Both the position numbers and the translations under genes were made by a program. The notes beneath the pieces were generated by a model, which had not been told where the DNA came from, did not search any database, and saw only the letters and a list, made by a program, of their open reading frames with translations. A stretch of 42,741 nucleotides of DNA from IMG/VR virus record IMGVR_UViG_3300033182_000322, positions 1 to 42,741 of that record; one strand, written 5' to 3'. Shown here piece after piece: positions 14,286 through 27,873 of the stretch (position 1 is its first letter; each line of letters begins with the position of its first letter). Source of the stretch: a virus.

Positions 14286-14599
14286 GCGTACAGTGAAGCA
14301 CCAAGGATGAAGCCCATACCAAACAACACAACCGCAATCAACACATGCTCAAAACTAATTGTTTCGATAAAAGTTGGCTCGGTTTTTGCGGGGGTTGACT
14401 TTGGCTCGACGGGCGGTGCCACGGGGATGTTGAGGAACGTGTTGAACGACTCCTCCCGCTTCTGTTTGTTCAGCCTATTAGCTATTGAGCTTTCTGAACG
14501 CCGTAGAGCTTTAGCCATTTCTTTATAGCTAGCGCCTTCTGCTTTCATTTCAAACAGTTTTTGGTCGTGTTTAGCAGACCATGCTTTGTACTTAGCCAC
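14282..14599 (-). CDS. HTH-like protein with C-terminal membrane anchor, 105 aa
   Basis: Residues 5-48 look like a helix-turn-helix or SANT-like DNA-binding segment (WSAKHDQKLFEMKAEGASYKE, then RSESSIANRL). Residues 55-80 are a Pro/Thr-rich linker. Residues 84-104 (VLIAVVLFGMGFILGASLYA and neighbours) form one hydrophobic helix at the extreme C-terminus. The arrangement suggests a DNA-binding domain tethered to the inner membrane. The start is GTG, six bases after AAGGAG, overlapping the TAG of the gene upstream. A coding frameshift is unlikely because both neighbours overlap cleanly. Confidence 0.7.
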   Translation of the reverse strand: MAKYKAWSAKHDQKLFEMKAEGASYKEMAKALRRSESSIANRLNKQKREESFNTFLNIPVAPPVEPKSTPAKTEPTFIETISFEHVLIAVVLFGMGFILGASLYA

Positions 14600-15288
14600 T
14601 ATCGTCTCCTTAGTCTAGCGTCTGGACAAATTTCCTTTGCAGGACACCACGGACACAACCCGCTTGGCTTGGTTTCAAACACACCCAAGTCAATCGTTTC
14701 ATGCACGCGATCAATGCGAGGTTTCAGTGCTCCCCACAGAGATTCTAAATATCGACGTTCATACGTAGTGTTCGTCGTTTTGTTAAACCGTAACCAAATA
14801 AACGAGGTCTTTACTGTCTGCACTTCGGGGAAGTGCCAGAAGATCATCGCCGCAAACAACTGTAGCTGTGTGGGCGACTCTCTTACCTTGCCTGTTTTGT
14901 AGTCTAAACAGTACGCTGTGTCACCGTCAATAACTAAAACGTCAGCGATTGATCGAAAGTACGCATCGTCTGCAAACCAATCAACTGGCTCCAGATTCTC
15001 ATTCACCGCCATCTGGTATTCAAACTTCTTCTCGCCAGAGCGCGACATAATTACGTCTACGATGTTGCCCCACTTCTTGAGAGACAACTCATCTTCCTCT
15101 GTTAATCCCGTGGGATTAAGCTCGCCCCTGCCGTAGTCTTCTAGCACCTTGTGTACCCGATGCCCGTAGTCAATCGCCTCGCTACTCGCCATTCGCACGG
15201 ACTTGCTAACGTACAGGTAATCGAACTGGGCTGGGCAGTTTTCAAACGTACTCAACCTGCTGTAAGAAAGAGCCATCTTGTCGCTCAT
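14599..15288 (-). CDS. Cas4/RecB-like PD-(D/E)xK exonuclease with Fe-S-type cysteines, 229 aa
   Basis: Motifs in order: YSRLSTFENCP with C18, GHRVH (GxxxH) at 42-46, D116 in SIADVLVID, the catalytic LDYKTGK with D129 and K131, QLQLFA after it, and three C-terminal cysteines C212, C215 and C221. One N-terminal and three C-terminal cysteines is the iron-sulfur arrangement of Cas4 and AddB nucleases. The likely role is resection of DNA ends in phage recombination or replication; no CRISPR array or other cas gene is present. One copy of the 18-bp palindrome lies inside the gene at 15102-15119. It overlaps the gene upstream by 4 bases. Confidence 0.85.
   Translation of the reverse strand: MSDKMALSYSRLSTFENCPAQFDYLYVSKSVRMASSEAIDYGHRVHKVLEDYGRGELNPTGLTEEDELSLKKWGNIVDVIMSRSGEKKFEYQMAVNENLEPVDWFADDAYFRSIADVLVIDGDTAYCLDYKTGKVRESPTQLQLFAAMIFWHFPEVQTVKTSFIWLRFNKTTNTTYERRYLESLWGALKPRIDRVHETIDLGVFETKPSGLCPWCPAKEICPDARLRRR
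15102..15119. repeat. palindrome copy 1: TTAATCCCGTGGGATTAA
   Basis: A full copy inside the Cas4/RecB-like gene, encoding LNPTGL on the coding strand. It is the only copy far from the 19-27 kb cluster. Confidence 0.9.
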
Positions 15289-15758
15289 GTGTTTAGCGCC
15301 TCTAGTTCTCGTACACGTTTTCGCAGTGCGAGTATTTGTTTGCCCATATCTGCGTTGCGCGTACGTAAGCGAACCACATCGTGTTCTTGGGGGTTTTTAA
15401 GGCTGTACTGTTCAAAAGCCTGCTCTTTTTCTGCCACAACCTGTTCGCGCTTGTGAACCGACATAAGCATGGCTTGCGCTTGCTTTAGTAATTTAGAGCT
15501 TTGGTTATATTGCTTATCAATGCACCCTAGTTTGTCTAAGTACAACTGCTGATACTTTTCAGCTATTTCGACACGTTCTTCTAACGAATAATCCTCTTTG
15601 GGCGTATAATCCTTTTTGGTACGCGCAATATGTTTTATTTCGGTGTCAGTTTCGATATTTATTTCCTCAACAACTGACGCCCATGCTTCCCAACCTTCGT
15701 CAAGCTGTTCAGAAATTTCGTCCATAAGTTTGTCTGCGTGCAACGTGTATTCGCTCAT
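15285..15758 (-). CDS. hypothetical coiled-coil protein, 157 aa
   Basis: An acidic, helical protein. Residues about 65-155 show coiled-coil heptad character and end in RTRNADMGKQILALRKRVRE. There is no enzyme motif. It overlaps both neighbours by ATGA and lies between the nuclease and a small conserved-looking protein in the replication operon, which suggests an oligomeric accessory factor; function unknown. Confidence 0.65.
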   Translation of the reverse strand: MSEYTLHADKLMDEISEQLDEGWEAWASVVEEINIETDTEIKHIARTKKDYTPKEDYSLEERVEIAEKYQQLYLDKLGCIDKQYNQSSKLLKQAQAMLMSVHKREQVVAEKEQAFEQYSLKNPQEHDVVRLRTRNADMGKQILALRKRVRELEALNT

Positions 15759-15994
15759 TTACGTGGTTTCTCCGTTGTCACTAGGCTTTCTGTTTCGATC
15801 CATACCCTAGCGCCACAGTTAAGTGGCTTATCTGGGGAGTGAACAACTCTGGAAGGGCCGTGGATAAATACACCGTGGCAATAAGTATTCTTTTTGCCTT
15901 GCTTTACTGTTATCGGTGGCTCATGTTCCGACGGATCAGACACTTTGAGGTTGCGCCTAATAACGTGCTGGTTAACGTGGATGCGAGTCTTCAT
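15755..15994 (-). CDS. small basic protein downstream of DNA polymerase, 79 aa
   Basis: A short, basic, His-rich protein with predicted beta strands (GVFIHGPSRVVHSPDKPL, then GARVWIETES). From memory, similar proteins of about 80 residues occur next to polymerase genes in many marine phages, but I cannot name the family. It overlaps the polymerase gene upstream and the coiled-coil gene downstream by 4 bases each. Confidence 0.65.
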   Translation of the reverse strand: MKTRIHVNQHVIRRNLKVSDPSEHEPPITVKQGKKNTYCHGVFIHGPSRVVHSPDKPLNCGARVWIETESLVTTEKPRK

Positions 15995-17829
15995 TTGGCT
16001 TCTCCATACGATGCTCCCACTCCTGTTTCACAAGCTACGGGTATGTAGCCCCTGCACCACTTAGGTGTCAGGTTCAAACATTCCTCCATGTAAGCTCGCG
16101 CTTCAACAAGTTCATCATCAGGTACGATGCACACGGCTTCGTCATGTACCGATAGCTTTACCGGATACCGCTGATTGATCCTAGCAGTCTGCCACATAAC
16201 AATCTGCATTGCCGCATGTTGGCAAAGATTTTCTACAACTTTCGGGCCAAAGATTTTGACTTCTTCGTTACGGCCCATTGTGTATATCCAATTATTTTCT
16301 TTGTACCTTAGCTTATGGTACACAACCCCCGGTTCTCCCGGCCTACCGAAACCATCCTTTTGTGTGATAAACCAGCCGCGAACGTCTACTTGCTCTAGCC
16401 AGTTTTCGTTTGCGATATTGGGAAGCACAGAGTGCTCGCAGTGTTGCCATAGTTTGGTTACTTCGTAGTGAACACTACGGTAAAGCTCAACGATCTCGTA
16501 AGCTCTATCCATTGTTATAGGCTCTGCACCTATGTATTTACCTTGCAAGTTAGCCATCTCTTGGAAGCGAGCGGCCCCTGCACCGTACTGCAAACCGAGC
16601 ATGGCGGTCTTACCTAGAAACCTCTCTGCTTTGTCAGCTTTGGTTATCTCTCTGCCAAACATTCGGGAAGCAAAGTCGCAGTACATATCGACTCCCGCCT
16701 CCAGCTTTTCAATAACATCGGTCTGCCCTGCCAGTGCCATCACAGTACGCAGTTCGATATTAGATGAGTCGCCAACAAGTACAGAGTGTCCTTCGGGAGC
16801 GCGGAGCGCGTTACGCAAACCAGCACTGATCCCTCTGGCTGGTAGGTTCTGCCAATTAACTTTGTTGCCCCCAGAGTATCTTCCGGTTGTTTTAGCGCCC
16901 CAATAGTTTAAGTACACAGGAAGTGGGCCACGCTTTGTCATCTCAATAAAACGCTCGGCCCGTGTCTCTGCAATAGTGGTCTTAGCGCCCAGCCTAGCGG
17001 CTACCAGCGCCTGCACTTCTGAGTCGGGATGCTCCTGCAAAGCCAGAAACTCTTTATCTGTCTTGGCAAAAGCGAAAGTAGTCTTACCCGTTCTGGGACT
17101 TACTTTGGTAGGCGGGTATACACCAAGGGCGCGTAGCTTCTCCGCAAACTTGGCACTCGACATGATCTCGGAGCGGTCAGCTTGTGCCAGCGCCAACAGC
17201 CCTTCTTTCCTCTGCACTTCTTTGGTGTATAGATCCTGCATGAGATCAAGATCACCCACAAACGCTGGCTCTGTGAACATACGGATCGTCATGTCGATCA
17301 GCAAGTTATTAAGTACAGGTGACTTATAGGAAAGTTCCCGGTGTAAATCGCGACATATTTTAACATCGGTAAGACAATACGCTTCGTAGTCTGCGAACGT
17401 GTCTTCGTCCATGTCGGCAAGGCGAACGCCCTTCATGTTGTGAACGGCTGTGCCTTTGTCTTCAAGCCTATAGAACCTAGCCATATTAGCCAGCGAGTGA
17501 GAGCGCAGGTACGGATGCACCATGCGGGACAGAGCTTGCGTACAGGTCCACATTCGTGGGTTTATCCCATAACGTTTAGCTAGGATATACCCGTCGAACA
17601 TAGTGTTGTGACAACAAATCTGTACGTTGTCCCAATCGCAGAGGTTTTGTAGTTGCTCGGTTATGCTGGCTTCGGAACCAACGATAGACATCGGCGGCTC
17701 GTCGTCAATCGCCACGCCAACCATGATAGTTTCGTAGCGATCATCAACAATGTAGGCATCTGTTTGGAGTTTACTAAGTGAGTAGTCGGAGTCGTAGTAC
17801 GTCTCAAAATCAACGTAGACTGTACGCAT
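15991..17829 (-). CDS. family A DNA polymerase with 3'-5' exonuclease, Leu at the '762' site
   Basis: The N-terminal proofreading domain is complete: D7 and E9 (VDFET), D79 (HNTMFDG) and Y151-D155 (YCLTD), the DEDDy set. The polymerase domain has motif A GDSSNIELR (D354, E359), motif B with R403, K407, L411, Y415 and G416, and motif C SVHDEAV (D563, E564). There is no 5'-3' exonuclease domain; at 612 aa it is a typical phage enzyme. L411 is four residues after K407, which corresponds to Phe762 of E. coli Pol I and Tyr526 of T7. Leu there is a known virioplankton variant linked with slower or temperate lifestyles. The Shine-Dalgarno is GGGGAG; the start overlaps the DUF3310 gene by 20 bases. 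Confidence 0.93.
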   Translation of the reverse strand: MRTVYVDFETYYDSDYSLSKLQTDAYIVDDRYETIMVGVAIDDEPPMSIVGSEASITEQLQNLCDWDNVQICCHNTMFDGYILAKRYGINPRMWTCTQALSRMVHPYLRSHSLANMARFYRLEDKGTAVHNMKGVRLADMDEDTFADYEAYCLTDVKICRDLHRELSYKSPVLNNLLIDMTIRMFTEPAFVGDLDLMQDLYTKEVQRKEGLLALAQADRSEIMSSAKFAEKLRALGVYPPTKVSPRTGKTTFAFAKTDKEFLALQEHPDSEVQALVAARLGAKTTIAETRAERFIEMTKRGPLPVYLNYWGAKTTGRYSGGNKVNWQNLPARGISAGLRNALRAPEGHSVLVGDSSNIELRTVMALAGQTDVIEKLEAGVDMYCDFASRMFGREITKADKAERFLGKTAMLGLQYGAGAARFQEMANLQGKYIGAEPITMDRAYEIVELYRSVHYEVTKLWQHCEHSVLPNIANENWLEQVDVRGWFITQKDGFGRPGEPGVVYHKLRYKENNWIYTMGRNEEVKIFGPKVVENLCQHAAMQIVMWQTARINQRYPVKLSVHDEAVCIVPDDELVEARAYMEECLNLTPKWCRGYIPVACETGVGASYGEAK

Positions 17830-18064
17830 CAGGCTCCCCCCTTGGGTCTATGCCAAGGGACAGTTGCAAGTACCACATCTGCTTCTCGACTTCTTGTTTT
17901 TCGTTGTCTTTACGCCCCCTTCGCCAGCTATATTTAAAAGCCGCGAGCTTCGCGTAGATACGCACTTCTTCTTCACCGTATGCGGCAAGCATAGCGTCTA
18001 TGCACTCTATCTCGTTATCTTGCCGATAGTGATCTGGGTTTATCGGGTCGTTTTCCCTCTTCAT
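17810..18064 (-). CDS. DUF3310 family protein, 84 aa
   Basis: Residues 7-75 carry the DUF3310 pattern: NPDHYRQ, then IECIDAMLAAYG, and then AAFKYSWRRGRKDN with KQMWYLQ. Such proteins are common in phage replication regions and are sometimes called nucleotide-kinase-like, but the reaction is not established. The gene overlaps the polymerase gene by 20 bases, and its start lies inside the end of a small zinc-ribbon frame. Confidence 0.85.
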   Translation of the reverse strand: MKRENDPINPDHYRQDNEIECIDAMLAAYGEEEVRIYAKLAAFKYSWRRGRKDNEKQEVEKQMWYLQLSLGIDPRGEPDAYSLR

Positions 18065-18155
18065 TTTTGATCCCTTTTAGTTTGGTTTGGCACTGTTCGC
18101 ACAGTGCCTTGACTATTGGAACTCCACATCGGTTGCACGTATAGCAGTGGTGCAT
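18015..18155 (-). CDS. 46-aa zinc-ribbon microprotein overlapping DUF3310
   Basis: ATG at 18155 overlaps the TAA of the gene upstream (TAATG). It encodes MHHCYTCNRCG with a second pair LCEQC: C7-x2-C10 and C19-x2-C22, a four-cysteine zinc-ribbon knuckle, plus a Lys/Arg-rich tail. The last 50 bases overlap DUF3310 in another frame. GGAG lies close upstream (2 bases) and GAGG further back. Without this gene there would be a gap of 90 bases in an otherwise gapless operon. The two CxxC pairs and the coupled start make a real gene likely. Confidence 0.6.
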   Translation of the reverse strand: MHHCYTCNRCGVPIVKALCEQCQTKLKGIKNEEGKRPDKPRSLSAR

Positions 18156-18433
18156 TACTCCACATCCTCATCACTTGTGGGGAAGAAGATGGTAACGCCA
18201 CGCCTCTGGCTAGTACCTTGAAACCAATCGCTGTTGGGGCAAGTATCTAGCCATTTAAACAACTCATAGCTAGACATAACCTTGTTGTTGGTCAGCATCC
18301 GCTGGGTTGTCGTAGGTAAAGAACCTAACTCCAATACGCGATACCCAGAGTCGCTGTAACAATCAACGCGCCCGTCGTCACGCAAACGCATAGTGCTACC
18401 CTTAATCTCAACCCACTCTCTTTCTTCTGCCAT
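18155..18433 (-). CDS. hypothetical protein, 92 aa
   Basis: A small acidic protein with alternating short strands (TMRLRDDGRVDCYSDSGYRVLELG) and an acidic C-terminus. Its ATG follows the TAA of the 45-residue membrane protein with no gap, and its own TAA overlaps the zinc-ribbon start. No motif is recognised; it is part of the replication operon. Confidence 0.65.
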   Translation of the reverse strand: MAEEREWVEIKGSTMRLRDDGRVDCYSDSGYRVLELGSLPTTTQRMLTNNKVMSSYELFKWLDTCPNSDWFQGTSQRRGVTIFFPTSDEDVE

Positions 18434-18571
18434 TTAATCCACCATTGAGTAAGCTAACGTAAGAAAGGCAATGAAGAACAACGCGCCTACCGCCTCGTTG
18501 AAAAAAATGTTGCCGCCAAACTCGCGGTTTTGCCACGCACGCAAATGCTTTAAGAATGATTTATCATTCAT
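18434..18571 (-). CDS. 45-aa single-pass membrane microprotein, first gene of replication operon
   Basis: ATG at 18571 lies five bases after AAGGAGAC, a strong ribosome binding site. The N-terminal half is polar and basic (KSFLKHLRAWQNREF); residues about 27-42 (AVGALFFIAFLTLAYS) form a hydrophobic helix. The TAA abuts the ATG of the next gene. It follows a terminator 30 bases upstream, so it is the first gene reached when transcription passes that terminator. Function unknown. Confidence 0.6.
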   Translation of the reverse strand: MNDKSFLKHLRAWQNREFGGNIFFNEAVGALFFIAFLTLAYSMVD

Positions 18572-18600
18572 TAGTTGTCTCCTTAGTAAGTAAAGTAAGT

Positions 18601-18621
18601 AAAAAGCCCCCCGAAGGGGGC
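18601..18621 (-). terminator. intrinsic terminator just before the replication operon
   Basis: On the minus strand GCCCCC-TTCG-GGGGGC is followed by TTTTT: a 6-bp G+C stem with a stable TTCG loop. It lies 30 bases upstream of the first replication gene and about 60 bases after a possible promoter, which is an attenuator-like position. Confidence 0.9.
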
Positions 18622-18629
18622 AAGACTTT

Positions 18630-18691
18630 CAGGAGTAATAGTCTACCACTCGCACTCATGCAATGCTTGTGGCACCTTGAATATACTCCTG
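18630..18691 (-). ncRNA. putative structured leader RNA upstream of terminator
   Basis: On the minus strand CAGGAGTA (18684-18691) pairs perfectly with TACTCCTG (18630-18637). Between them CCAC and GTGG enclose an inner stem of GCATT with AGTGC around the loop GCATG, giving nested helices. A GTG-started frame of ten codons ending in TGG TAG lies in the same stretch. The outer 5' arm overlaps the putative -10, so the full fold would exist only in transcripts coming from upstream. It may be an attenuator; seen by eye only. Confidence 0.35.
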
Positions 18692-18707
18692 CCAGATTTT
18701 TTTGCAA
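18680..18707 (-). promoter_or_regulatory. possible sigma70 promoter for the replication operon
   Basis: On the minus strand TTGCAA (18707-18702), a 16-bp spacer and TATATT (18685-18680). The -10 matches 5 of 6 and the -35 4 of 6. It lies directly after the stop of the 65-residue gene and upstream of the terminator at 18601-18621. Confidence 0.45.
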
Positions 18708-18905
18708 CTACTTAGGAAAAAGGATTACCTCGACGGGTGCTTCCCCGCCTTTCCAATCCACATCCTCAAGTGCCTTGATGGATAAGTCATTGAGTATAGC
18801 CATAGACTTTTTGAACCTGCGGCTCATCTGGTCGGCGGCCTGTAACGCGATTAGTATTTCCCCGACATACTCCGGTATGGGATTAGTTTTTTGGTCAGCG
18901 TCCAT
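18708..18905 (-). CDS. small hypothetical protein, 65 aa
   Basis: A helical N-terminal two-thirds (GEILIALQAADQMSRRF...), then GGEAPVEVILFPK. No clear Shine-Dalgarno precedes the ATG; it lies 4 bases after the stop of the gene upstream and may depend on coupling. It is the last gene before the leader and terminator. No function recognised. Confidence 0.5.
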   Translation of the reverse strand: MDADQKTNPIPEYVGEILIALQAADQMSRRFKKSMAILNDLSIKALEDVDWKGGEAPVEVILFPK

Positions 18906-18909
18906 AACA

Positions 18910-19122
18910 CTACAACTGCTCTCTAATTATCTTCCCCAGATCCCTAAAGCCGTTAAGGTCTTCAAGCGTGTGGCCTAAGAACTCATACTGCTTGTTTAAC
19001 AAGTATCTAGCTTTCATAAGCTCAGTGGCTATCGCCAACTGCTGATTCTTGCTGAGACTGTTCCAATGATACTTCTGGGTGACAAATAACTCCAGAGTCC
19101 TATCGTCTATCCGATCTTGCAT
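18910..19122 (-). CDS. small hypothetical protein, 70 aa
   Basis: A mostly helical, charged protein (LSKNQQLAIATELMKARYLLN). Its ATG follows AAGGAG, and that site is directly preceded by a complete copy of the 18-bp palindrome (19132-19149), so it is one of the five start-associated copies. Function unknown. Confidence 0.6.
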   Translation of the reverse strand: MQDRIDDRTLELFVTQKYHWNSLSKNQQLAIATELMKARYLLNKQYEFLGHTLEDLNGFRDLGKIIREQL

Positions 19123-19131
19123 TGGTACTCC

Positions 19132-19149
19132 TTAATCCCACGGGATTAA
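19132..19149. repeat. palindrome copy 2: TTAATCCCACGGGATTAA
   Basis: A full 8+2+8 copy. On the minus strand it runs straight into GGAG of the Shine-Dalgarno of the 70-residue gene. Confidence 0.9.
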
Positions 19150-19422
19150 CTAGTGAACATTGTTCATCGTCAGAGGAGCCCTTGCGGGGTAGGCTTTCTT
19201 GTTAAAGCTATCTATCGCAGTCATGATGAACGATAACAAGGCCAACATATCTTCGTTACTGTCGTCCAGTAGTAGATAAGAAGGGGCGTCATAAAACGCA
19301 CGCCCCCTTGCTTCCAGCAATCGTTGGATGAAGTCATCTATTTCTTCGGCTGAAGAAAATTCTATACTGCCCCCACCTAAACCAAGCTGGATGATCGCAT
19401 CATCTTCGTTATCGTCGTCCAT
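19150..19422 (-). CDS. acidic hypothetical protein, 90 aa
   Basis: A strongly acidic N-terminus (MDDDNEDDA) and a helical C-terminal part. A GTG two codons upstream (19428) would add two residues; neither start has a clear ribosome site, so translation may be coupled to the 445-residue gene, whose stop is at 19436. The stop abuts palindrome copy 2. No motif recognised. Confidence 0.55.
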   Translation of the reverse strand: MDDDNEDDAIIQLGLGGGSIEFSSAEEIDDFIQRLLEARGRAFYDAPSYLLLDDSNEDMLALLSFIMTAIDSFNKKAYPARAPLTMNNVH

Positions 19423-19435
19423 TACCACGTTCGAC

Positions 19436-20773
19436 TTACTCGGTTTCGCCTACAAGCATACCCCATAAGCTACCCGCATAGATAATGAATTCTTGAGTAG
19501 ACAACTTCTTGCCCACATCAACGATGCCAAACCGCCTAACCTTATTGTCGTCTCCATCGTCTATCGACAACTGAGCGATTTTAGCCATCATGTCAGCAGG
19601 TAGCTGGGACATTGGCTCTATGTAGGTGTCTGTGAGCCGTTTGTAGTAAGACACATTAGAGCGCCAATGATCTTCGGTTTTCAGACTGTTAAGTAGTTCG
19701 TCTGCTCGGGAAAGCGCATCGTTAAGCCTAGCGTCTTTGTCCCCGAACGTATGTCGAACAAGGTCAGTCACCGTCCTAAAGTCACCTGACATAAATTGAT
19801 CGGCGGTAGGGAAGTCAAGCAACGTGTAGGAAACTAAGTCGGAGTTAGGCACAAGGCGCAGGTAGCACATCCGCGAGCTTTCGATAGCGGAGTCTACAAG
19901 AGTGACGTAATTGTGGCGTAGTTTATTCCACAAACTAGTCGCTTCCGCTGGAACACTTGGCGAGTCAATAAGAAACTTAAGTACTTTGCTACCGCCGTCG
20001 TCACCAAACGCATCGTTAAGCGTTCCTTTAAGGCCGCGTATACTCTGCGATATAGTTTGTTGCTTACGCTTCACGGGCGTGAGGATGTTGTGATGTTCGT
20101 TCTCAAACGCCACATACTCCCTGACCTTGGTAGGCGGGGTCCACTTGGCATACTTCCTCGCCAGCTTCAGCGCAGTCTCCGCACTTGAAGTGCTTTGTAC
20201 ATGCGAGCGTTCTCTGTGTATTAGCAACGGGCTACGGAACAAGTACTGCTCTGTCCCATGAGCCTTGTTGCCCGAGGTTGAGATAGCGGCACTGGCGTAA
20301 TCGGAGTCCCTGTGAAAGATTATTACGCCATCAATAACGGGTATCAGCAAGTCATCAGTGTACGGTTCCATATCTTTGTAGATATTAAAGTACCTATCCG
20401 TACTCCTAAGCTCAAGGCGGGGGAACACTTCAAGGTATGGCATAACCGAAGTTAGCTCGTCCATCATCTCAAAGAGTAAAGGCGTCATAAAGAAGCCAAA
20501 CTTACGAAACGAGTCGATGTTGACGCTATTGAAAACCCTGTCCTTAGCCCGCTCTGAATCAGCAACAAGCCTATTCTTCTGTGCTAGGAACATTTCTTTA
20601 GGGATGGTAAACATGTTCTCAAAAGTGTAGCCAGAGTCTTGGTTAAGTGAAGGGTGCGGCACGCGGGTAGACATATCCCTATCAGTCCCACTGACAGCAC
20701 TGAGCCATGAGTAAAGTATGTCGGTATCAAGCTCGACGCGCTTGGCTTTGGTGGTTCGCTTTTTAACAGTCAT
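19436..20773 (-). CDS. hypothetical protein, 445 aa
   Basis: A large soluble protein with a basic start (TVKKRTTKAKR) and mixed helix and strand composition. No P-loop, nuclease or membrane motif was recognised. The ATG follows TTAAGGAG at good spacing; upstream of it is an A+T-rich spacer that keeps only the ATTAAGGAG half of the start-associated context, without the palindrome. It follows the MoxR/VWA module, so it could be part of or a target of that system, which is inference from order only. Confidence 0.65.
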   Translation of the reverse strand: MTVKKRTTKAKRVELDTDILYSWLSAVSGTDRDMSTRVPHPSLNQDSGYTFENMFTIPKEMFLAQKNRLVADSERAKDRVFNSVNIDSFRKFGFFMTPLLFEMMDELTSVMPYLEVFPRLELRSTDRYFNIYKDMEPYTDDLLIPVIDGVIIFHRDSDYASAAISTSGNKAHGTEQYLFRSPLLIHRERSHVQSTSSAETALKLARKYAKWTPPTKVREYVAFENEHHNILTPVKRKQQTISQSIRGLKGTLNDAFGDDGGSKVLKFLIDSPSVPAEATSLWNKLRHNYVTLVDSAIESSRMCYLRLVPNSDLVSYTLLDFPTADQFMSGDFRTVTDLVRHTFGDKDARLNDALSRADELLNSLKTEDHWRSNVSYYKRLTDTYIEPMSQLPADMMAKIAQLSIDDGDDNKVRRFGIVDVGKKLSTQEFIIYAGSLWGMLVGETE

Positions 20774-20803
20774 TGATTACTCCTTAATAAGTAAATTAGT
20801 TAG

Positions 20804-21106
20804 TCAGATAACTTTGCGGAATTCTACTGCCGCAATGGTTTCGCCCTTGTGTACTACCTCATAGTTATCGCCGTAGTGCGTAGCACCTTGGCGAGCCATG
20901 TCAGCCAACAACACCATAAGCGAACGGCCTATGGTGTCTACGTAAACGATACGGGCATCGTCGTCTACTGTTAGCCAGTTATTCCGGGTATCGGTAGTGA
21001 TACCCAATTCTTCAAAGCCACGAACAAGTTTGCTCTCTGTCCGTGTAAGTCGAGTAGTAATGTTCTGCTCAAACTTGGACAGGCGGCTTACTAGATCATC
21101 CTTCAT
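20804..21106 (-). CDS. hypothetical protein, 100 aa
   Basis: I chose the ATG at 21106 because AAGGAG lies six bases before it; an open frame continues 16 codons further up but has no ribosome site and overlaps the VWA gene. The N-terminal half is a basic helix likely to be coiled coil (LVSRLSKFEQNITTRL and following). The C-terminal half is compact, with YVDTIGRSLMVLLADMARQG. Function unknown. Confidence 0.6.
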   Translation of the reverse strand: MKDDLVSRLSKFEQNITTRLTRTESKLVRGFEELGITTDTRNNWLTVDDDARIVYVDTIGRSLMVLLADMARQGATHYGDNYEVVHKGETIAAVEFRKVI

Positions 21107-21116
21107 TTCGTTCTCC

Positions 21117-22286
21117 TTACAACTGAACGGGAACGGGAGTACCAAACGGCACATCGTCCTTGCTATGTGTCAGACCCCACACGCATGGGATACCGGGGTC
21201 CATCAGTTCATCTAAGTCACCATATAAGTCAGTGAAGTAGATCATACCGCAATAGTCATCCTGAGACTCCTCAAGGTGATCGAACACGGGCTTGAACCGC
21301 GTGCCTCCACCCTGACACGGTTTGAATTCAACTTCTTCACCATACTCAAAGCGATCAACCCGTAGCACCGCGCTGTCACAATAAACAACTTCGACAAACG
21401 CGGGGCGGGTGTCACTAACGATAGCGTTGATCTCGGCGGAAACTTGCGCCAGTTCAGTCGGATCACTCCACATCGAACCGGATACGTCAGCACCGATCAA
21501 CAGGCCACCAAGCGCATCGGAATGAAGCGCAGGCAAGTAGATACCTTGTGACACGAACCGCCTACGTGGGCGTTGGAATGTATAGTCATCCTTAGCCGAC
21601 TCGGACAGCATGTTGCGTAGCACATCTACCCAAGACACTTTCGACTTGCCTATATCTTCCAGTATGCGATCAACTAGGCCAGAGCCTTGCCCACACTCTT
21701 TAGCCATCTTCGCGGCGGCTACGATTGTGGACTCAAGGTCTGCTTTTGTTGCCTCGTCAACAGCATCCTCAATGTCGCCCTCGCCATCGAAACCACCGGC
21801 TGGATAAGGTGAGTCGTTGCCATCACCTTCGCCGTCACCATCTGGGTTGTCCGGCTTGTCAGGCGGGGAAGGCGGGTTGTCCTTCAGCTTCTGGTAAACT
21901 TCTTCAGAGGACATTGACTCCGTTACCCAATCAACAAACACGCCACCGTCAGGTAGCTCGTAACCACGCTTGCGTATGTACGCATTGATGATTGCGTCGT
22001 TAGAGTAATTCCACAGTCTAGGGTCGCGTCCTTCCCGCCGCCACATATGCATTAGTACAACATGCAATGCTTCGTGCAAGGTCAGACCGAACAACTGCGA
22101 GTCGGTACACTTGGATACAAAGTCTGGGTTGAATTTAACCCATGACCCGTTGGTAGCGGCTGTAGGCACATCGGATGTTACCTCCCGCTTGATCTTACTC
22201 ATCACTGCCGCGATGAATGGTTCGCGTATGCCCAGCTTGCTGTACGCAAGACCCACACGCTTTTCGATTAGAGATATATCAGTCAT
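21117..22286 (-). CDS. metallopeptidase-like / VWA domain protein (DUF2201-type), 389 aa
   Basis: The N-terminal domain has HEALHxxxxH at 71-80, the zinc site of the peptidase-like domain found in DUF2201 proteins. Residues about 138-175 are a Pro/Asp/Gly-rich acidic linker. The C-terminal domain is von Willebrand A-like, with the metal-site motif DVSGSM (D267, S269, S271). Proteins with this pair work with MoxR AAA+ ATPases, which act on a partner through the VWA domain; the ATPase gene lies two genes upstream. What the phage uses the pair for is unknown. The Shine-Dalgarno GGAG is directly preceded by palindrome copy 3. Confidence 0.85.
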   Translation of the reverse strand: MTDISLIEKRVGLAYSKLGIREPFIAAVMSKIKREVTSDVPTAATNGSWVKFNPDFVSKCTDSQLFGLTLHEALHVVLMHMWRREGRDPRLWNYSNDAIINAYIRKRGYELPDGGVFVDWVTESMSSEEVYQKLKDNPPSPPDKPDNPDGDGEGDGNDSPYPAGGFDGEGDIEDAVDEATKADLESTIVAAAKMAKECGQGSGLVDRILEDIGKSKVSWVDVLRNMLSESAKDDYTFQRPRRRFVSQGIYLPALHSDALGGLLIGADVSGSMWSDPTELAQVSAEINAIVSDTRPAFVEVVYCDSAVLRVDRFEYGEEVEFKPCQGGGTRFKPVFDHLEESQDDYCGMIYFTDLYGDLDELMDPGIPCVWGLTHSKDDVPFGTPVPVQL

Positions 22287-22296
22287 TAAGTTCTCC

Positions 22297-22314
22297 TTAA
22301 TCCCACGGGATTAG
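22297..22314. repeat. palindrome copy 3: TTAATCCCACGGGATTAG
   Basis: 17 of 18 consensus bases. It carries the stop codon of the 126-residue gene (22311-22313) in one arm and abuts the Shine-Dalgarno of the VWA gene with the other. Confidence 0.9.
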
Positions 22315-22691
22315 AACGGTACGTCTTCATGTACTTTGACGTATTTTTCATACAAATCGTCGAGAGCAAACACCGCATCAACGTACAACTTAGCTTGCTC
22401 AAACGTCTCAAACGTTTTGAACCGTGTTGAAGAAGCGCCAGCGTGCGCCCAATCCAACTGTGCAAACCAATGGTGGTCGGCAGTTTCTTGGATTACGCCC
22501 ACATTCTGGAGCTTCCCGTTAGGCATGGGACACTGGACAAGCCAATGCTCCCGCAGACAGATATGCGTATCCAGCGCATCAGTACCCACCATAGTCCTGA
22601 TTGACTGATAAGACTCCGGCCAATCGTGAACTAGTCTGGTGGGATATTTACGCCAGTACGCAACGTTATCTTTGCGCGTGAACTCAAGCAT
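22311..22691 (-). CDS. hypothetical protein, 126 aa
   Basis: A small protein rich in Trp, His and Tyr (HWFAQLDWAHAGASS). It starts within the last 8 bases of the MoxR gene and ends inside a palindrome copy. It is placed between the MoxR ATPase and VWA genes, so it may be an adaptor of that module; no family recognised. Confidence 0.65.
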   Translation of the reverse strand: MLEFTRKDNVAYWRKYPTRLVHDWPESYQSIRTMVGTDALDTHICLREHWLVQCPMPNGKLQNVGVIQETADHHWFAQLDWAHAGASSTRFKTFETFEQAKLYVDAVFALDDLYEKYVKVHEDVPF

Positions 22692-23697
22692 TGAACGCGC
22701 CCTGATTCTGTAATGACCACTGCGTGAACGCAGGTGATTTCGCCAGATCCTTGTCGCGCTTGTAGGCCAGCTTAACAGTCAACGTTTGCACATCGCCGGG
22801 GCATTTCTGTAAGAACTTCCAAGCGTTGTCAAAGTTAGACTTGTCGAGCCGCGTAGCCAGACCCATAGCCACACAATAGAGAACGTTCAACTTCTCCGGC
22901 ACTTCTGTCGGCTTGCCCTCCAGAATGTCATCAATGCGGGGCATCTCGCCGTAGACTCGCAGGTGCGCTTCAAACGCAATGCCAGCCTCCTCGCCAATGT
23001 CACCCTTAATACATTCCGGTCTGACTTCTTCCGGTAGGTCTAGGCTGAGCGCGTCACTGACAGCGAACCACGAACGTGGTGTGGGGAACGGCTTGATTTC
23101 GCCGCCGCTAGGCTCAAACTTGTGCAGGTAGTCTGGCCGGTCGCGCAGGAATGATAGAACTTCGGGGCGTATACCCTGAGTGATAGCGTGATCCTCAAAG
23201 TCATCAAGCGTACTGGCAACTTCAACTTGGTTGAACCTGTTAAGTAACGGGCCACCAATGTTGTACGTTACACCGCGATCAGACTTGGAGTTACCTGCCG
23301 CCATAATCATCCAGCCTTCCGGCACCCCGAAATCTTGGGGTGTCAGCACTAGCTGATACGCCGCCGCTTGTATCGACTGCGGGGCAGAGGTGATCTCATC
23401 AAGAAAGATGATGCCCGATCCCTCCTGCGGGAGCGTGTCGAACCGACACCATGTGGCTACCTTGTTAGCCATATCTGCCGCAGGGATACCGCGCAGGTCG
23501 GTAGGCTCCATCTGACTCAGCCGAATGTCTACCACGCCGTGCCAATCCTCGACTTTATCTTTCAAGAACTCGCTGGCTTGGAATACCACTTCGGACTTGC
23601 CGATACCCGCAGGGCCAAGCAAAAACAACGCACGCTTGCGAACTTTGGGGTTGAGGTAACGCTTAACGATAACAGGGGTTACGTGTTTGATACGCAT
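22684..23697 (-). CDS. MoxR-like AAA+ ATPase, 337 aa
   Basis: Walker A GPAGIGKS at 28-35, Walker B IIFLDE at 96-101, sensor 1 MIMAAGN with N135, and a downstream GGPLLNRF segment with an arginine in arginine-finger position. This is the MoxR/CobS-type AAA+ layout. MoxR ATPases act as chaperones with VWA partners, and such a partner is encoded downstream. Probable role: remodelling a phage or host protein complex. The ATG follows AGGAGG; the gene overlaps the next by 8 bases. Confidence 0.9.
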   Translation of the reverse strand: MRIKHVTPVIVKRYLNPKVRKRALFLLGPAGIGKSEVVFQASEFLKDKVEDWHGVVDIRLSQMEPTDLRGIPAADMANKVATWCRFDTLPQEGSGIIFLDEITSAPQSIQAAAYQLVLTPQDFGVPEGWMIMAAGNSKSDRGVTYNIGGPLLNRFNQVEVASTLDDFEDHAITQGIRPEVLSFLRDRPDYLHKFEPSGGEIKPFPTPRSWFAVSDALSLDLPEEVRPECIKGDIGEEAGIAFEAHLRVYGEMPRIDDILEGKPTEVPEKLNVLYCVAMGLATRLDKSNFDNAWKFLQKCPGDVQTLTVKLAYKRDKDLAKSPAFTQWSLQNQGAFNA

Positions 23698-23745
23698 AAT
23701 TGTGTCCTCCTAGGACGTAAGTAAACAACAAGTTAGTAATAAGTT

Positions 23746-23763
23746 TTAATCCCGTGGGATTAG
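23746..23763. repeat. palindrome copy 4: TTAATCCCGTGGGATTAG
   Basis: 17 of 18 consensus bases. It includes the TAA stop (23760-23762) of the 75-residue gene and lies 48 bases upstream of the MoxR start. Confidence 0.9.
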
Positions 23764-23987
23764 TCTTCCGTTTCTTGGGCCAACTCTATCTCCGCATGTT
23801 CTGCTACGGAGAGAGGTTGGAGGTGTAACCGACTGTAGCGATCAGACTTAGCTCGCTGAAAGCCACAGGCGGTATCATAGGAGCTATCAAGCGGTACAGC
23901 ATCCGCAAGTAGCTCCAATACTTTACACGCCGACTCGTAGGGCATCATGTACCCAGAGGAAGGCGTTATGACAACTGCTCGCTTCAT
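23760..23987 (-). CDS. small hypothetical protein, 75 aa
   Basis: A short protein with mixed composition and an acidic end (HAEIELAQETED). The ATG overlaps the stop of the DUF3150-like gene by 4 bases (ATGA) and its stop lies in palindrome copy 4. No motif recognised; part of the MoxR/VWA operon. Confidence 0.6.
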   Translation of the reverse strand: MKRAVVITPSSGYMMPYESACKVLELLADAVPLDSSYDTACGFQRAKSDRYSRLHLQPLSVAEHAEIELAQETED

Positions 23988-25018
23988 GCGAACTCATCCG
24001 CGAACATATCGTCAATCTCAGCCATCAGACTGCGTGAGGGGTCAGGCTCCAGAGGCGCGAATCCATCCTTGTTGGATTCTTCCGGGGTTTCAGGGAGCGC
24101 TACTACGTTGTCATTAGTGGGTTCCGGCTCGTCATCGGACAGCATCGCTTCGATCTGCGCGACCCATCCAACAATCTGCGTACAAGTCTGCGTCTTGATA
24201 CTCAACCCACTACGCAACTGAGCGGGAGTCGGTAGTGCCGATCTCAACTCACGCGCAAACGTGATGTACTCCGTGGGCAGTACACTGTCGCCAAAGTCGA
24301 TAATCTTCTGGCACTCATCCAGCACGTTGTTCACTGTAGAGTCACGGAAGATAGCCGGTTTAGTATCGACAACCACGCCGTTGTCATCCTTGATAGCACG
24401 GTCTGGCTCGTTCAACTTATCGGACAGTTTGTGCAAGGTGGCTTGCACTGCCATCAGCGGAGCCTTCGCCAGATCCGCGTATTGCTCGCGCATGGAGTTA
24501 GCCGTTAGCTTGCGCAACTCATCAAGCTCGTCCTCCTGCATCTGCACGCGGAAGTCGTTCTCGTCAGTCACCTGCCGATACAGGAACTTGAGGGAGAACT
24601 GATCCTTCAGCTTATCCACGCTCGGGTAGATGTCTGCGTCAAACAGCGAGCCCAACTCGCGCTGAGCCTCCAGCATGACGTTAGACCAGTTATTGAGAAA
24701 CGCAGTTACGGCCTGCTGGAACTCCAATTCGATCTTGCCAGCATCCTGCGCAAATTCCATAAAGCGCGTAGACGGGAGCAAGAACTCGTTGCGATTCCAC
24801 AGGTAGGTATCCCTGCGAACGAACGATCTGGCTCGCGAACACAGTCGATCTATAGGTGACATCAAGTGCTTGGGGTACAAGCTCTTAACAAAACGACCCG
24901 CATCTGATGCGGCATTGTGAGCGTTAGCAACATCATTAGATACATTACGATCTGTACGCTCCTTGGTTGGCTGATTGATCGACACCGATACAATCAGGGC
25001 GTTAGTCTTGATTGACAT
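23984..25018 (-). CDS. DUF3150-like protein of the MoxR/VWA module, 344 aa
   Basis: I chose ATG 25018 because AAGGAG lies seven bases upstream; the frame extends 12 codons further without a ribosome site. The N-terminus (MSIKTNALIVSVSINQPT) is followed by a long helical, charged body, and the C-terminus is acidic (ADEFA). Size, N-terminal signature and position beside MoxR and VWA genes fit DUF3150, a family I recall in this context in other phages and proteobacteria; no catalytic motif is seen. It overlaps the genes on both sides. Confidence 0.6.
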   Translation of the reverse strand: MSIKTNALIVSVSINQPTKERTDRNVSNDVANAHNAASDAGRFVKSLYPKHLMSPIDRLCSRARSFVRRDTYLWNRNEFLLPSTRFMEFAQDAGKIELEFQQAVTAFLNNWSNVMLEAQRELGSLFDADIYPSVDKLKDQFSLKFLYRQVTDENDFRVQMQEDELDELRKLTANSMREQYADLAKAPLMAVQATLHKLSDKLNEPDRAIKDDNGVVVDTKPAIFRDSTVNNVLDECQKIIDFGDSVLPTEYITFARELRSALPTPAQLRSGLSIKTQTCTQIVGWVAQIEAMLSDDEPEPTNDNVVALPETPEESNKDGFAPLEPDPSRSLMAEIDDMFADEFA

Positions 25019-25241
25019 GACTAGTCTCCTTAATAATAGTTTGTGCTTGAACAAGTTTTACACCCGATTCCTCGGGCAAGTAATCAACTAAACGATTAAC
25101 TCCGACAGTCTGAAGTAGATTGACCAAAGCCGCTCTACCCTGACTGTTATCGTAATCATTATATATCTGTTTGATAACTGCAAGTATCAGATCATCCTTA
25201 GATAGCAGGGAGAACTGCGCAGGTTGAGATAGATAAGTCAT
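25002..25241 (-). CDS. small hypothetical protein, 79 aa
   Basis: ATG 25241 is preferred because AAGGAGG lies eleven bases upstream, directly joined to palindrome copy 5. The eight codons upstream of this Met in the open frame lie inside the ribosome site and repeat. The protein is helical (LILAVIKQIYNDY). Its end overlaps the start of the DUF3150-like gene by 17 bases. Function unknown. Confidence 0.55.
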   Translation of the reverse strand: MTYLSQPAQFSLLSKDDLILAVIKQIYNDYDNSQGRAALVNLLQTVGVNRLVDYLPEESGVKLVQAQTIIKETSHVNQD

Positions 25242-25255
25242 CGAGTAATACCTCC

Positions 25256-25273
25256 TTAATCCCATGGGATTGG
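25256..25273. repeat. palindrome copy 5: TTAATCCCATGGGATTGG
   Basis: 16 of 18 consensus bases. On the minus strand it runs into GGAGG of the Shine-Dalgarno of the 79-residue gene. Confidence 0.85.
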
Positions 25274-25288
25274 TTTTAGTGGTTTGCG

Positions 25289-25537
25289 TTAGCCAGTGAT
25301 TTTGGGGTTTGTGCCAATACCCGCCGTGACCGGCACAGGATTGGATTTGTGCATCGTTGCGATGCCTTTGACAAGCGTACCCGTATACCGCTGGGTTTCT
25401 TTGCGAGCTTGTACCTTTGGGTCGAACACCGTGATGGGTACACTCGGGTAGGTTTGAGTCTCGCGCACATAACGAGGGTTGGCATATAGCGTTGCCTCGC
25501 GAGTGCCGTTGTAGACAGAACTGCGACTACTGCTCAT
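25289..25537 (-). CDS. small hypothetical protein, 82 aa, first gene after promoter P2
   Basis: ATG follows AAGGAG, which is joined to palindrome copy 6. The protein is basic, rich in Thr, Pro and Tyr, and probably poorly ordered (TREATLYANPRYVRETQ). It is the first gene downstream of a near-perfect sigma70 promoter (25633-25660), so it is likely an early protein. No family recognised. Confidence 0.6.
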   Translation of the reverse strand: MSSSRSSVYNGTREATLYANPRYVRETQTYPSVPITVFDPKVQARKETQRYTGTLVKGIATMHKSNPVPVTAGIGTNPKITG

Positions 25538-25549
25538 GTTGTTGTCTCC

Positions 25550-25567
25550 TTAATCCCACGGGATTAA
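25550..25567. repeat. palindrome copy 6: TTAATCCCACGGGATTAA
   Basis: A full copy in the leader between promoter P2 and the 82-residue gene, ending at the Shine-Dalgarno. Confidence 0.9.
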
Positions 25568-25632
25568 TTGAATTAGTCAGTTTGTGAATAAATAAACAAC
25601 AAGTGAAAAACATAAAATTTCCCACAGTCATT

Positions 25633-25660
25633 ATTATACCAAACTGGGAAGTTATGTCAA
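25633..25660 (-). promoter_or_regulatory. consensus sigma70 promoter P2, leftward
   Basis: On the minus strand TTGACA (25660-25655), a 16-bp spacer and TATAAT (25638-25633): both hexamers perfect. It is preceded by TTAAT (25665-25661). Drives the 82-residue gene and probably the accessory operon behind it. Confidence 0.85.
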
Positions 25661-25670
25661 ATTAAGAATA

Positions 25671-25696
25671 AACTAGTTGGTATTATAAAAAATAGA
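25671..25696. repeat. direct repeat A, left copy
   Basis: AACTAGTTGGTATTATA followed by an A+T-rich run and TAGA; nearly the same as 26251-26275. It contains the palindrome ACTAGT and lies upstream of promoter P2. Confidence 0.6.
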
Positions 25697-25739
25697 CATC
25701 TAAGAATTATTATTACAACTTTTTTATCATTACATCATA

Positions 25740-25762
25740 CGGCAACGTGGGGATTGGGACGG
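25740..25762 (+). other. fragment matching the fibre-gene NVGIG repeat
   Basis: CGGCAACGTGGGGATTGG (25740-25757) is identical to 42032-42049 in the fibre gene; with the next bases 22 of 23 agree. It reads GNVGIGTG in frame but there is no start codon and a stop follows. Possible relic of recombination. Confidence 0.45.
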
Positions 25763-26226
25763 GTAAGTGTACTTTAAGATACATTTAGGGTGTTTTTAGA
25801 CAATTAGTTAGTTGACTTTTACGTGACCAACATTTTTAAAATTTGTAAGTGTTTGATTTACAAAAAGAATCTCGGATTTTAGACAAAACTTTAGACAGTT
25901 AATTTCTCGTAACTTCTTGATTTTAAACGTTTTAGACAAATAGTCGCTCTCTCAGACAACAGAGACGCCCAGACACTAAAAAACCGACAGCGGCGCTTAT
26001 AGGGGTACACTATGTTTTAAAAATTCTGTCTATTTATCTATTTATTTGGTTATATATACTACTACTACCGACTTTTTCCTTGCTAATCAATGGTTTGCCA
26101 ATCCCACAATTTTTTTATGGTTTTAGATACTCAAAGTTCAAAAAATCTAAAGTGAGGAAAATCAAGGGCTTAGAAATCTACAACTCTGTCTAAGGATTTT
26201 CTTTATTCCATTAGGTTATTTAGAGC

Positions 26227-26244
26227 CTAATCCCGTGGGATTAA
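26227..26244. repeat. palindrome copy 7: CTAATCCCGTGGGATTAA
   Basis: 17 of 18 consensus bases, within the gene-free block just before the right copy of direct repeat A. Confidence 0.85.
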
Positions 26245-26250
26245 CTTAAA

Positions 26251-26275
26251 AACTAGTTGTTATTATATTTTAGAG
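26251..26275. repeat. direct repeat A, right copy
   Basis: AACTAGTTGTTATTATA followed by TTTTAGAG; matches 25671-25696 in same orientation with few changes, about 580 bases apart. Confidence 0.6.
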
Positions 26276-26302
26276 TTGTCTAAAAATTACGCGGCGGCGT
26301 TT

Positions 26303-26318
26303 CGTGATAGTAATAACG
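26303..26318 (+). repeat. GATAGTA motif copy 1
   Basis: CGTGATAGTAATAACG; overlaps the start of the inverted repeat at 26313-26335. Confidence 0.5.
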
Positions 26319-26335
26319 ACTCAGCTTGTCGTTAT
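26313..26335. repeat. inverted repeat ATAACGAC-N7-GTCGTTAT
   Basis: A perfect 8-bp dyad with a 7-base centre. The right arm runs into GTTATGTCAA, a third copy of the -35 context of promoters P1 and P2, but without a good -10. Possible operator. Confidence 0.5.
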
Positions 26336-26345
26336 GTCAAGGCCA

Positions 26346-26363
26346 ACGTGATAGTAATAGATG
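26346..26363 (+). repeat. GATAGTA motif copy 2
   Basis: ACGTGATAGTAATAGATG, 43 bases after copy 1 in the same orientation, shortly before the terminator of the 198-residue gene. Confidence 0.5.
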
Positions 26364-26396
26364 TTTGTGGGTCAGGGTCGGGCAAACAATAGGCAC

Positions 26397-26419
26397 AAAA
26401 AAGCCCGCACAAGGCGGGC
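26397..26419 (-). terminator. intrinsic terminator after the 198-residue gene
   Basis: On the minus strand GCCCGC-CTTGT-GCGGGC is followed by TTTTTT. Almost the same hairpin follows the paralogous gene at 27286-27309. Confidence 0.9.
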
Positions 26420-26433
26420 AAGGAGTGATCTTG

Positions 26434-26451
26434 TTAATCCCGTGGGATTAA
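26434..26451. repeat. palindrome copy 8: TTAATCCCGTGGGATTAA
   Basis: A full copy overlapping the stop codon (26448-26450) of the 198-residue gene, 14 bases before its terminator. Confidence 0.9.
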
Positions 26452-27044
26452 GCGGTCTTTTTGCGGGCGCGTCTTTCGATGCGCTTTTCTATGGGAGTCA
26501 CCTCGCAGTGATACTCGGCCAGTGTATCGTTCAACACCTTGACCGGATTCTTGGAATTGCCAAACAACCCAGCCAGTTGGCGCTTGAACTCGGCCAGACT
26601 GAATACCTGCTCAGCAGGCCCAGTGGGTTGGCGTGGCGTGCGGCCTCCGCCTGCGGCTCTGGCAATGCCCATTTCCTCGCGTGCGGCTTTCGCGGCAGAC
26701 TTCAGATCATGTTTAGACAGTACTAAAGCGCCTGTGCCTGTGGTGTGTTGCTCCTCCTTTTTGCGATCAACAAAAGAGATCGGCATATTCCCTGCCATCG
26801 ACAGTGTGGCGACATCGCCAAAATACGCTGATAGATTGTGATCCCCGTTGAACTCGTCGGCATACAACGACCGGCCATGCTTGACGATTGCGGGCACATC
26901 ATTGGACTCGTAATCCCGTGGGATTAACTCCACAAATTGTAGTGCCGCGCTACGTACCATTGCTAGTGCCGATGCTTGAGTTTCAACACCACTAGCGATG
27001 AGGGATGCGACTTCCTCGTTACGCGCAATATCTTTAACATCCAT
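26448..27044 (-). CDS. paralogous regulatory-region protein A, 198 aa
   Basis: ATG 27044 is chosen because AAGGAG lies seven bases upstream, joined to palindrome copy 10; the 22 codons further up in the frame overlap that repeat and promoter P1. It shares with the 182-residue neighbour GDHNL (middle), HTTG, the stretch SKHDLKSAAKAARE and RAAGGGR, so the two are paralogs. A basic tail (RIERRARKKTA) suggests nucleic-acid binding. It has its own consensus promoter and terminator, so it is probably made early and strongly. Copy 9 of the palindrome lies inside the gene. No family recognised. Confidence 0.7.
   Translation of the reverse strand: MDVKDIARNEEVASLIASGVETQASALAMVRSAALQFVELIPRDYESNDVPAIVKHGRSLYADEFNGDHNLSAYFGDVATLSMAGNMPISFVDRKKEEQHTTGTGALVLSKHDLKSAAKAAREEMGIARAAGGGRTPRQPTGPAEQVFSLAEFKRQLAGLFGNSKNPVKVLNDTLAEYHCEVTPIEKRIERRARKKTA
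26910..26927. repeat. palindrome copy 9: GTAATCCCGTGGGATTAA
   Basis: 17 of 18 consensus bases, inside the coding sequence of paralog A, where it encodes part of LIPRDYE. Confidence 0.85.
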
Positions 27045-27055
27045 TTTGAATCTCC

Positions 27056-27073
27056 TTAATCCCGTGGGATTAG
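27056..27073. repeat. palindrome copy 10: TTAATCCCGTGGGATTAG
   Basis: 17 of 18 consensus bases, in the leader between promoter P1 and paralog A, ending at its Shine-Dalgarno. Confidence 0.9.
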
Positions 27074-27116
27074 TTAACAAGTTAATAAAGGTGTGACTTT
27101 CCCAAGCCACATAATA

Positions 27117-27144
27117 ATTATACGCTCATGAGGGGTTATGTCAA
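27117..27144 (-). promoter_or_regulatory. consensus sigma70 promoter P1, leftward
   Basis: On the minus strand TTGACA (27144-27139), a 16-bp spacer and TATAAT (27122-27117). Both hexamers, the spacer length and the flanking TTAAT and TAAC are the same as in P2, while the rest of the spacer differs. Drives paralog A. Confidence 0.85.
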
Positions 27145-27161
27145 ATTAACAAGTTGAGCAT

Positions 27162-27179
27162 TTAATTCCATGGGATTAA
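27162..27179. repeat. palindrome copy 11: TTAATTCCATGGGATTAA
   Basis: 17 of 18 consensus bases, 17 bases upstream of the -35 of promoter P1, an operator-like place. Confidence 0.85.
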
Positions 27180-27190
27180 ATTTTTGGGCG

Positions 27191-27324: not shown

Positions 27325-27873
27325 TCACTTGCTGACCTTGCGGAGTTGGTAGCCATTTTCGCGAAGTATCTCACGAAGTGCTTGGATACCCGCTTCCGAT
27401 TTGAGCATGTTCTCGACCGCTGATTTCGCGCTGACCAGTGCGCCTTTGACGGGGCCGTTCATGTTGGGCCGTGCTTTGCGACCGCCACCGCTTGCTCGAC
27501 CGGCACCCAGATCCTCGCGTGCCGCCTTCGCCGCCTTGCGCATGTCGTGCTTGGCAAGATGGGTGGCCTCTTCGCCGGTGGTGTGCAATTCCTGAACTTC
27601 GCCATCTACCTTGCGCTCAATGGATACCGGCGCATCTGCGGCATAGTGTAGGGTGAGAAAGTCGGTAAATATGGCCTTGAGATTGTGGTCGCCGTCGAAG
27701 TGCTCAGTGTACCGACCCAGTACCTCACCAACCGATTCGCGTACCTCCTTGCTGGTATCCAACTCTGGTGCCGCAGTAGCGGCGGCGAATCTGAGTGAAG
27801 AGTACACGGTGCCATGTGCGGTAACAGCATCCTTGATGTGAGCGATTACCTGTTCATTTGCTTGCGTAGTCAT
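27325..27873 (-). CDS. paralogous regulatory-region protein B, 182 aa
   Basis: Paralog of the 198-residue protein: shares GDHNL, ELHTTGEEA, AKHDMRKAAKAARED and GRASGGGRKAR at similar places, with divergent N- and C-termini. The Gly/Arg patch and basic C-terminus (YQLRKVSK) suggest nucleic-acid binding. It is the first leftward gene, next to the divergent packaging genes. AAAGGA lies 12 bases before the ATG. No consensus promoter was found upstream, in contrast with paralog A. No family recognised. Confidence 0.7.
   Translation of the reverse strand: MTTQANEQVIAHIKDAVTAHGTVYSSLRFAAATAAPELDTSKEVRESVGEVLGRYTEHFDGDHNLKAIFTDFLTLHYAADAPVSIERKVDGEVQELHTTGEEATHLAKHDMRKAAKAAREDLGAGRASGGGRKARPNMNGPVKGALVSAKSAVENMLKSEAGIQALREILRENGYQLRKVSK

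Follow-up and report, generated by a model that had tools for sequence, protein, structure and literature searches.

A dispersed palindrome predicted to serve as the early-gene operator array of an uncultivated family of freshwater phages

The 42,741-nucleotide virus record IMGVR_UViG_3300033182_000322 (hereafter the window, meaning the whole stretch of DNA analysed) carries an 18-bp palindrome at many dispersed positions, raising the question of what these repeats do and what might bind them. The window contains 11 copies of TTAATCCC-RY-GGGATTAA versus 0.17 expected from dinucleotide shuffles, a count reached by none of 100 shuffles, and a scan of the whole record found no others. These are the 11 copies reported in a preliminary description of the sequence, which had proposed the comparison with shuffled sequence; every coordinate proved exact, with no mismatches at 15102, 19132, 25550 and 26434, one at 22297, 23746, 26227, 26910, 27056 and 27162, and two at 25256. 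The same description took the outer arms of eight bases to be constant, which is correct for the inner part (TAATCCC-RY-GGGATTA in gene direction, designated A-type) but not for the outermost base, mostly T or C on the upstream side and A or G on the downstream side; the copy at 27162 also has one change within the inner arm. The central two bases vary as described (AC, GT, AT), being purine-pyrimidine in nearly all sites, with GC also found in relatives.

The leftward early module contains all of the window sites, and the late module contains none. Moving outward from the first early promoter, the sites are spaced by 106, 146, 476, 207, 677, 294, 1510, 1449, 3165 and 4030 bp, the gaps growing with distance from that promoter, and they are numbered here in this order as putative operators. 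Operator 1 (TTAATTCCATGGGATTAA, 27162..27179) is upstream of the -35 element of the first early promoter (TTGACA-16-TATAAT, 27117..27144, minus strand, a 12/12 match to the sigma-70 consensus), with its centre at about -60, and operator 2 (27056..27073) is in the leader with its centre at about +46, directly followed by the Shine-Dalgarno (SD) sequence AAGGAG and then ATG. The gene served by this promoter (26448..27044, minus strand, 198 aa) contains operator 3 (26910..26927), and its stop codon overlaps operator 4 (26434..26451); operator 5 (26227..26244) is in an AT-rich intergenic region. A second consensus promoter (TTGACA-16-TATAAT, 25633..25660, minus strand, 12/12 match) precedes operator 6 (25550..25567), which lies in the leader of gene 25289-25537 and abuts its SD AAGGAG. 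Operator 7 (25256..25273) abuts the SD of a minus-strand gene with ATG about 12 nt further on, operator 8 (23746..23763) shares the stop codon of 23760-23987 upstream of a MoxR-like ATPase gene, operator 9 (22297..22314) shares the stop codon of 22311-22691 and abuts the SD of the VWA/DUF2201 gene, and operator 10 (19132..19149) abuts the SD of gene 18910-19122. Operator 11 (15102..15119) is within a RecB-like exonuclease gene (14599-15288), and this site and operator 3 are the two copies that had been noted as lying inside genes in different reading frames, as they indeed do. The metallopeptidase-like VWA/DUF2201 protein (21117-22286) is labelled 'HNH endonuclease' by PHROG and GenBank, a label with no Pfam support. 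The initially transcribed leaders after early promoters (27070-27115 in the window, and many other loci) have a common motif such as GTGGCTTGGGAAAGCCAC or GAGTCGGAAAGCGCC.

The array marks one uncultivated podovirus-like family of freshwater phages. A pattern scan of IMG/VR with the palindrome gave, among the matches listed, at least 106 distinct contigs, 98 of the 106 belonging to one family by shared proteins and the other eight being chance single matches unrelated to it. The scan of relatives proposed in the preliminary description was also carried out on a non-circular sample, IMG/VR loci collected by the VWA/DUF2201 early protein without use of the palindrome: 61 of 69 loci have at least one exact site, and the remaining eight comprise one B-type and one C-type locus (defined below), two short fragments and four distant relatives (32-33%). 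Long genomes of the family (58-61 kb) mostly have 10-12 sites (one has 6), restricted to the first part of the early operon. A nucleotide search against isolated phages gave no match; the nearest isolates are Pseudomonas phage Rollin, in whose record (which contains N runs) no site was found, and Rhizobium phage RHph_TM3_14A, whose genome carries a different palindrome of its own, GTTACCT-N4-AGGTAAC. The latter forms an unannotated genome-wide array (GTTACCTNNNNAGGTAAC; L124, L127) of 36 copies in 50 kb versus 0.04 expected, spanning early and late regions. In most members of the uncultivated family a second motif, ACTACTATCAY, precedes the palindrome of the first early promoter by about 15-25 bp (window copies at 27198(+), 27259(-) and 27973(-), with further copies nearby family-wide); this motif is not found in Rollin or the Rhizobium phage.

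Positions relative to genes were counted for 375 oriented sites across the family. The TAA of TAATCCC is the stop codon of the upstream open reading frame in 150 of them, and an SD sequence begins directly at the site end in 56. A site is present within 100 nt upstream of 40 of 65 VWA genes, 36 of 49 MoxR genes and 35 of 45 DUF3150-like genes, and upstream of none of the genes for exonuclease (0/49), SNF2 helicase (0/41), terL (0/34) or portal protein (0/19). At orthologous sites, such as those before VWA, MoxR and DUF3150-like genes, the two central bases drift between AC, AT and GT. In nearly all members with sufficient flanking sequence, a site precedes the start of the first early gene, and the most constant site of all, also in nearly every member, is the one upstream of this gene's -35 element, at a variable distance of about 3-18 nt. 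With a sigma-70 promoter defined as having at most two mismatches, a -35 element is located 65-105 nt before 15.6% of sites versus 0-1.4% in nearly all other bins, which places the site at approximately +35 to +55, about 45 nt downstream of strong promoters; in a smaller group of sites the -35 follows closely, and no promoter can be recognised alongside some 70% or more of sites. Some relatives have an exact operator copy inside the DNA polymerase gene, and in polA (L034:7523, L049:7041, L166:15519) the codons of a conserved DFNPMEL form an operator with one mismatch.

Certain lineages have evidently exchanged the whole set of sites for another. The B-type site, TATTCCC-RY-GGGAATA, is carried by L134, L218, L221, L223, L250, L252 and L253, and the C-type site, TAATTTT-GC-AAAATTA, accounts for six of six sites in L178; a pattern scan for the C-type was swamped by single chance matches in AT-rich contigs. 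The changes are symmetric in both arms and affect all sites together, from A to B in two or more lineages and from A to C in another. Sister contigs L032 (A-type) and L223 (B-type) share 86% identity over 4 kb and 96% in terL, yet between them orthologous sites show symmetric differences in the two arms. L134 and L250 are closer to the A-type window lineage than to the L223 clade, and therefore the switch to B happened more than once. Since whole arrays switch, one factor must act on all sites at once, and the concerted symmetry points to a co-evolving phage-encoded protein that would bind as a dimer.

The palindromes are probably operators for a single phage-encoded dimeric DNA-binding regulator of early genes, which would turn these genes down in the manner of stoperators. 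From the array itself, the arms and positions conserved across the family, the promoter geometry, the constraint on the DNA and the concerted switches, all of which are features of the sequences, we infer a dimer, repression rather than activation, a roadblock to transcription and a candidate for the binder. In this model, host RNA polymerase would start at the near-perfect sigma-70 early promoters until the regulator had accumulated, whereupon the latter would bind beside or just downstream of the early promoters and in the early gene junctions, blocking both initiation and elongation and so turning down the early operon. The regulator would most likely be the product of the first early gene, whose flanking operators would make it self-repressing. 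Two long genomes yielded no known repressor, integrase or recombinase, and 84,980 species genomes contained no prophage relative, so a role in early shut-off or in exclusion of a second infecting phage is likelier than lysogeny; a plasmid-like or rare lysogenic state is the less likely setting for such a regulator.

The preliminary description saw no repressor gene in the window and suggested a binder encoded outside it or by the host. The window does lack any protein recognised as a repressor by profile libraries, but it contains a candidate in the form of two unrecognised paralogs, the first early gene product (26448-27044, paralog b) and a 182-aa protein (27325..27873, minus strand, paralog a), which we favour by a small margin over all else as the operator-binding regulator. 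A binder from outside the window or from the host is not favoured, given that none of the 84,980 species genomes has more than one copy of the palindrome and that the sites switch in concert within phage lineages. The candidate gene is flanked by operators, and its family is present in all six long A-type genomes, the C-type genome G010 and the window; it went undetected in both Rollin and the Rhizobium phage. The two copies in the window lineage are 34% identical, and L052 and L250 likewise have two. The protein belongs to no Pfam family and no convincing PHROG family, 50,697 phage records contain no match to it, and searches of PDB and BFVD with models of the full-length protein and of its core yielded no PDB relative and a single homolog from an uncultured phage. 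The core domain model (pLDDT 95.7) consists of a helix (44-59 in full-length numbering), a turn, a helix (63-77), a beta hairpin (82-99) and a helix (108-121), an order of elements, and nothing beyond that order, by which the modelled domain would be read as a helix-turn-helix plus beta-hairpin.

Residue 63 is the first of the helix that follows the short turn in the core model. It is histidine (43) or asparagine (4) in 47 of 47 A-type copies and alanine (5) or serine (1) in six of six B-type copies, a correlation with site type that is suggestive support for the candidate. Loss of His/Asn63 in further B lineages was foretold before L250 was found, and residue 63 is changed in both paralogs of that B-type relative. 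At position 67, one turn further on, alanine is replaced by serine in three of three sister comparisons, serine also occurring in some A-type copies. A test for columns with disjoint A-type and B-type residues gave P ~0.005 for the candidate, and nominal significance also for some control proteins (MoxR, DUF3150, VWA and polA), because the B lineages sit on long branches; the residue test is therefore supporting evidence and not proof.

Another phage-encoded regulator could use the same operator array, whether one of the early proteins (92-aa, 75-aa, 121-aa or DUF3150-like) or the product of a gene outside the window, and this is the alternative to be taken most seriously, although an unlikely one. 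These early families are found in all A-type genomes and most of them in B and C types, and DUF3150-like, MoxR and VWA proteins also have A/B-specific columns; however, no DNA-binding domain is recognised in any of these candidates, A/B-specific columns are lacking in the 92-aa protein, and, unlike the first early gene product, they are not encoded next to the operators clustered at the first promoter. A helix-turn-helix protein (14282-14599) was also considered, and is confined to the window subgroup and therefore not the common binder.

Repression by the first early gene product, or by another phage protein, has to be distinguished from the opposite effect, in which the palindromes would load an activator or antiterminator that switches the early operon on. 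The site upstream of the -35 element is where activators bind, but this reading is improbable: the gap between the two varies widely, the promoters are already near consensus and need no activator, and the majority of sites are found downstream of promoters or within operons. Repression and roadblocking fit the placement of sites just after promoters and at the junctions between genes.

Still less probable is that the phages have borrowed the site of a host transcription factor. Dyads of 18 bp are typical of bacterial regulators, and Pseudidiomarina species (L232, L234, L236, L243, L248) have a single conserved TTAATCCCRYGGGATTAA just after the end of a tRNA-like gene near rpoD, with the same R-Y variation at the centre as the phage sites. 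Among the 84,980 species genomes, however, the palindrome has only 24 matches, all single, on which a host regulon is rejected, as is the host mobile repeat that the preliminary description had named as the refuting case; no bacterial or archaeal genome searched has such a regulon, and the concerted switches occur within one phage family, even between contigs that are 86% identical.

Of the two interpretations first offered for the palindrome, a dimer binding site and an RNA hairpin, the former is supported by the constraint on the DNA and the symmetric switches, and the latter is not upheld. The palindromes are predicted to be DNA operators because the site upstream of the -35 element is outside that promoter's mRNA and because one-sided changes break RNA pairing: on the coding strand, single-arm changes at a C-G pair include 20 of G to A in the downstream arm, giving a C-A mismatch (about half of them at one polA position), and none of C to T in the upstream arm, which would leave a G-U wobble. 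Centres at the MoxR site (AT 13, AC 11, GT 12) have no strand preference; over all sites AC outnumbers GT on the coding strand by 130 to 63, orthologous copies being non-independent. In 25000-28300 no palindrome coincides with a listed terminator-like site (a G+C-rich stem and then a run of T), and intrinsic terminators are rejected there. A hairpin upstream of the SD, acting on translation or mRNA stability, is thus the least probable reading of all, for although many sites abut an SD sequence that a stem could mask, the sites fold no better as RNA than shuffles, have no match in Rfam and in some cases lie inside genes.

The principle of one regulator with many dispersed sites is already known, and by analogy the predicted operator array may work like the stoperators of cluster A mycobacteriophages or the SPBRE/MrpR system. 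Stoperators (L5) are many copies of the site of one regulator, at promoters and in short intergenic gaps, with motif and regulator varying jointly among related phages (PMC9283540, PMC6550527). The array of this family resembles them in having many sites of one putative regulator in such locations, but stoperators are 13-bp, asymmetric, oriented with transcription and present genome-wide in more than 20 copies (PMC9283540, PMC6550527), whereas here an 18-bp palindrome is present in 10-12 copies in the early operon only. The monomeric stoperator repressor combines a helix-turn-helix with a stoperator domain (PMC9283540), for which the small proteins of two long genomes gave no Pfam or PHROG match. 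SPBRE of the Bacillus prophage SP-beta is a dispersed intergenic 15-bp motif that was recognised long before its binder, MrpR, a phage master repressor with a tyrosine-recombinase fold, outside the usual repressor folds (PMC10516654). It too provides dispersed sites for one regulator; no recombinase family match was found in the proteins scanned from these phages. Being palindromic, limited to the early operon and accompanied by neither type of regulator, the array is therefore not a member of either system. The SAS/ESAS elements of cluster K mycobacteriophages, in 11-19 phage-specific copies at the start codons of a subset of genes and absent from hosts, include a 13-bp asymmetric element of translation start (PMC3203893); the palindromes are likewise linked to start codons, but are symmetric and also occur upstream of promoters and inside genes. 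The 2055-aa protein 1485-7652 has no RNA polymerase match of the kind expected of an N4-type virion RNA polymerase, and ParB is absent from the families listed for two long genomes, in which part of the proteins were scanned. In E. coli gal, one operator is near -60 and another near +46 of the same promoter. Operators 1 and 2 of the window are similarly placed, 106 bp apart, but this pairing is not retained in most relatives.

Tentatively, and with the balance slightly against so full an account, the first early protein may be the founding member of a family of sequence-specific DNA-binding regulators that is new and has a fold absent from PDB; acting through 10-12 operators, it would shut down early transcription in phages that lack lysogeny genes, with residue 63 setting the base pair read in each half-site and several lineages having switched operator type genome-wide. 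The analysis thus names a testable candidate regulator without known relatives. It is a long-standing question how a regulator that acts at many sites can shift specificity in step with them and leave the circuit intact, and the natural pairs of close relatives in which the whole operator set has been switched make that question, and the co-evolution of regulator and site, directly testable here. An uncultivated phage family seen in dozens of metagenomes thereby gains its first regulatory logic.
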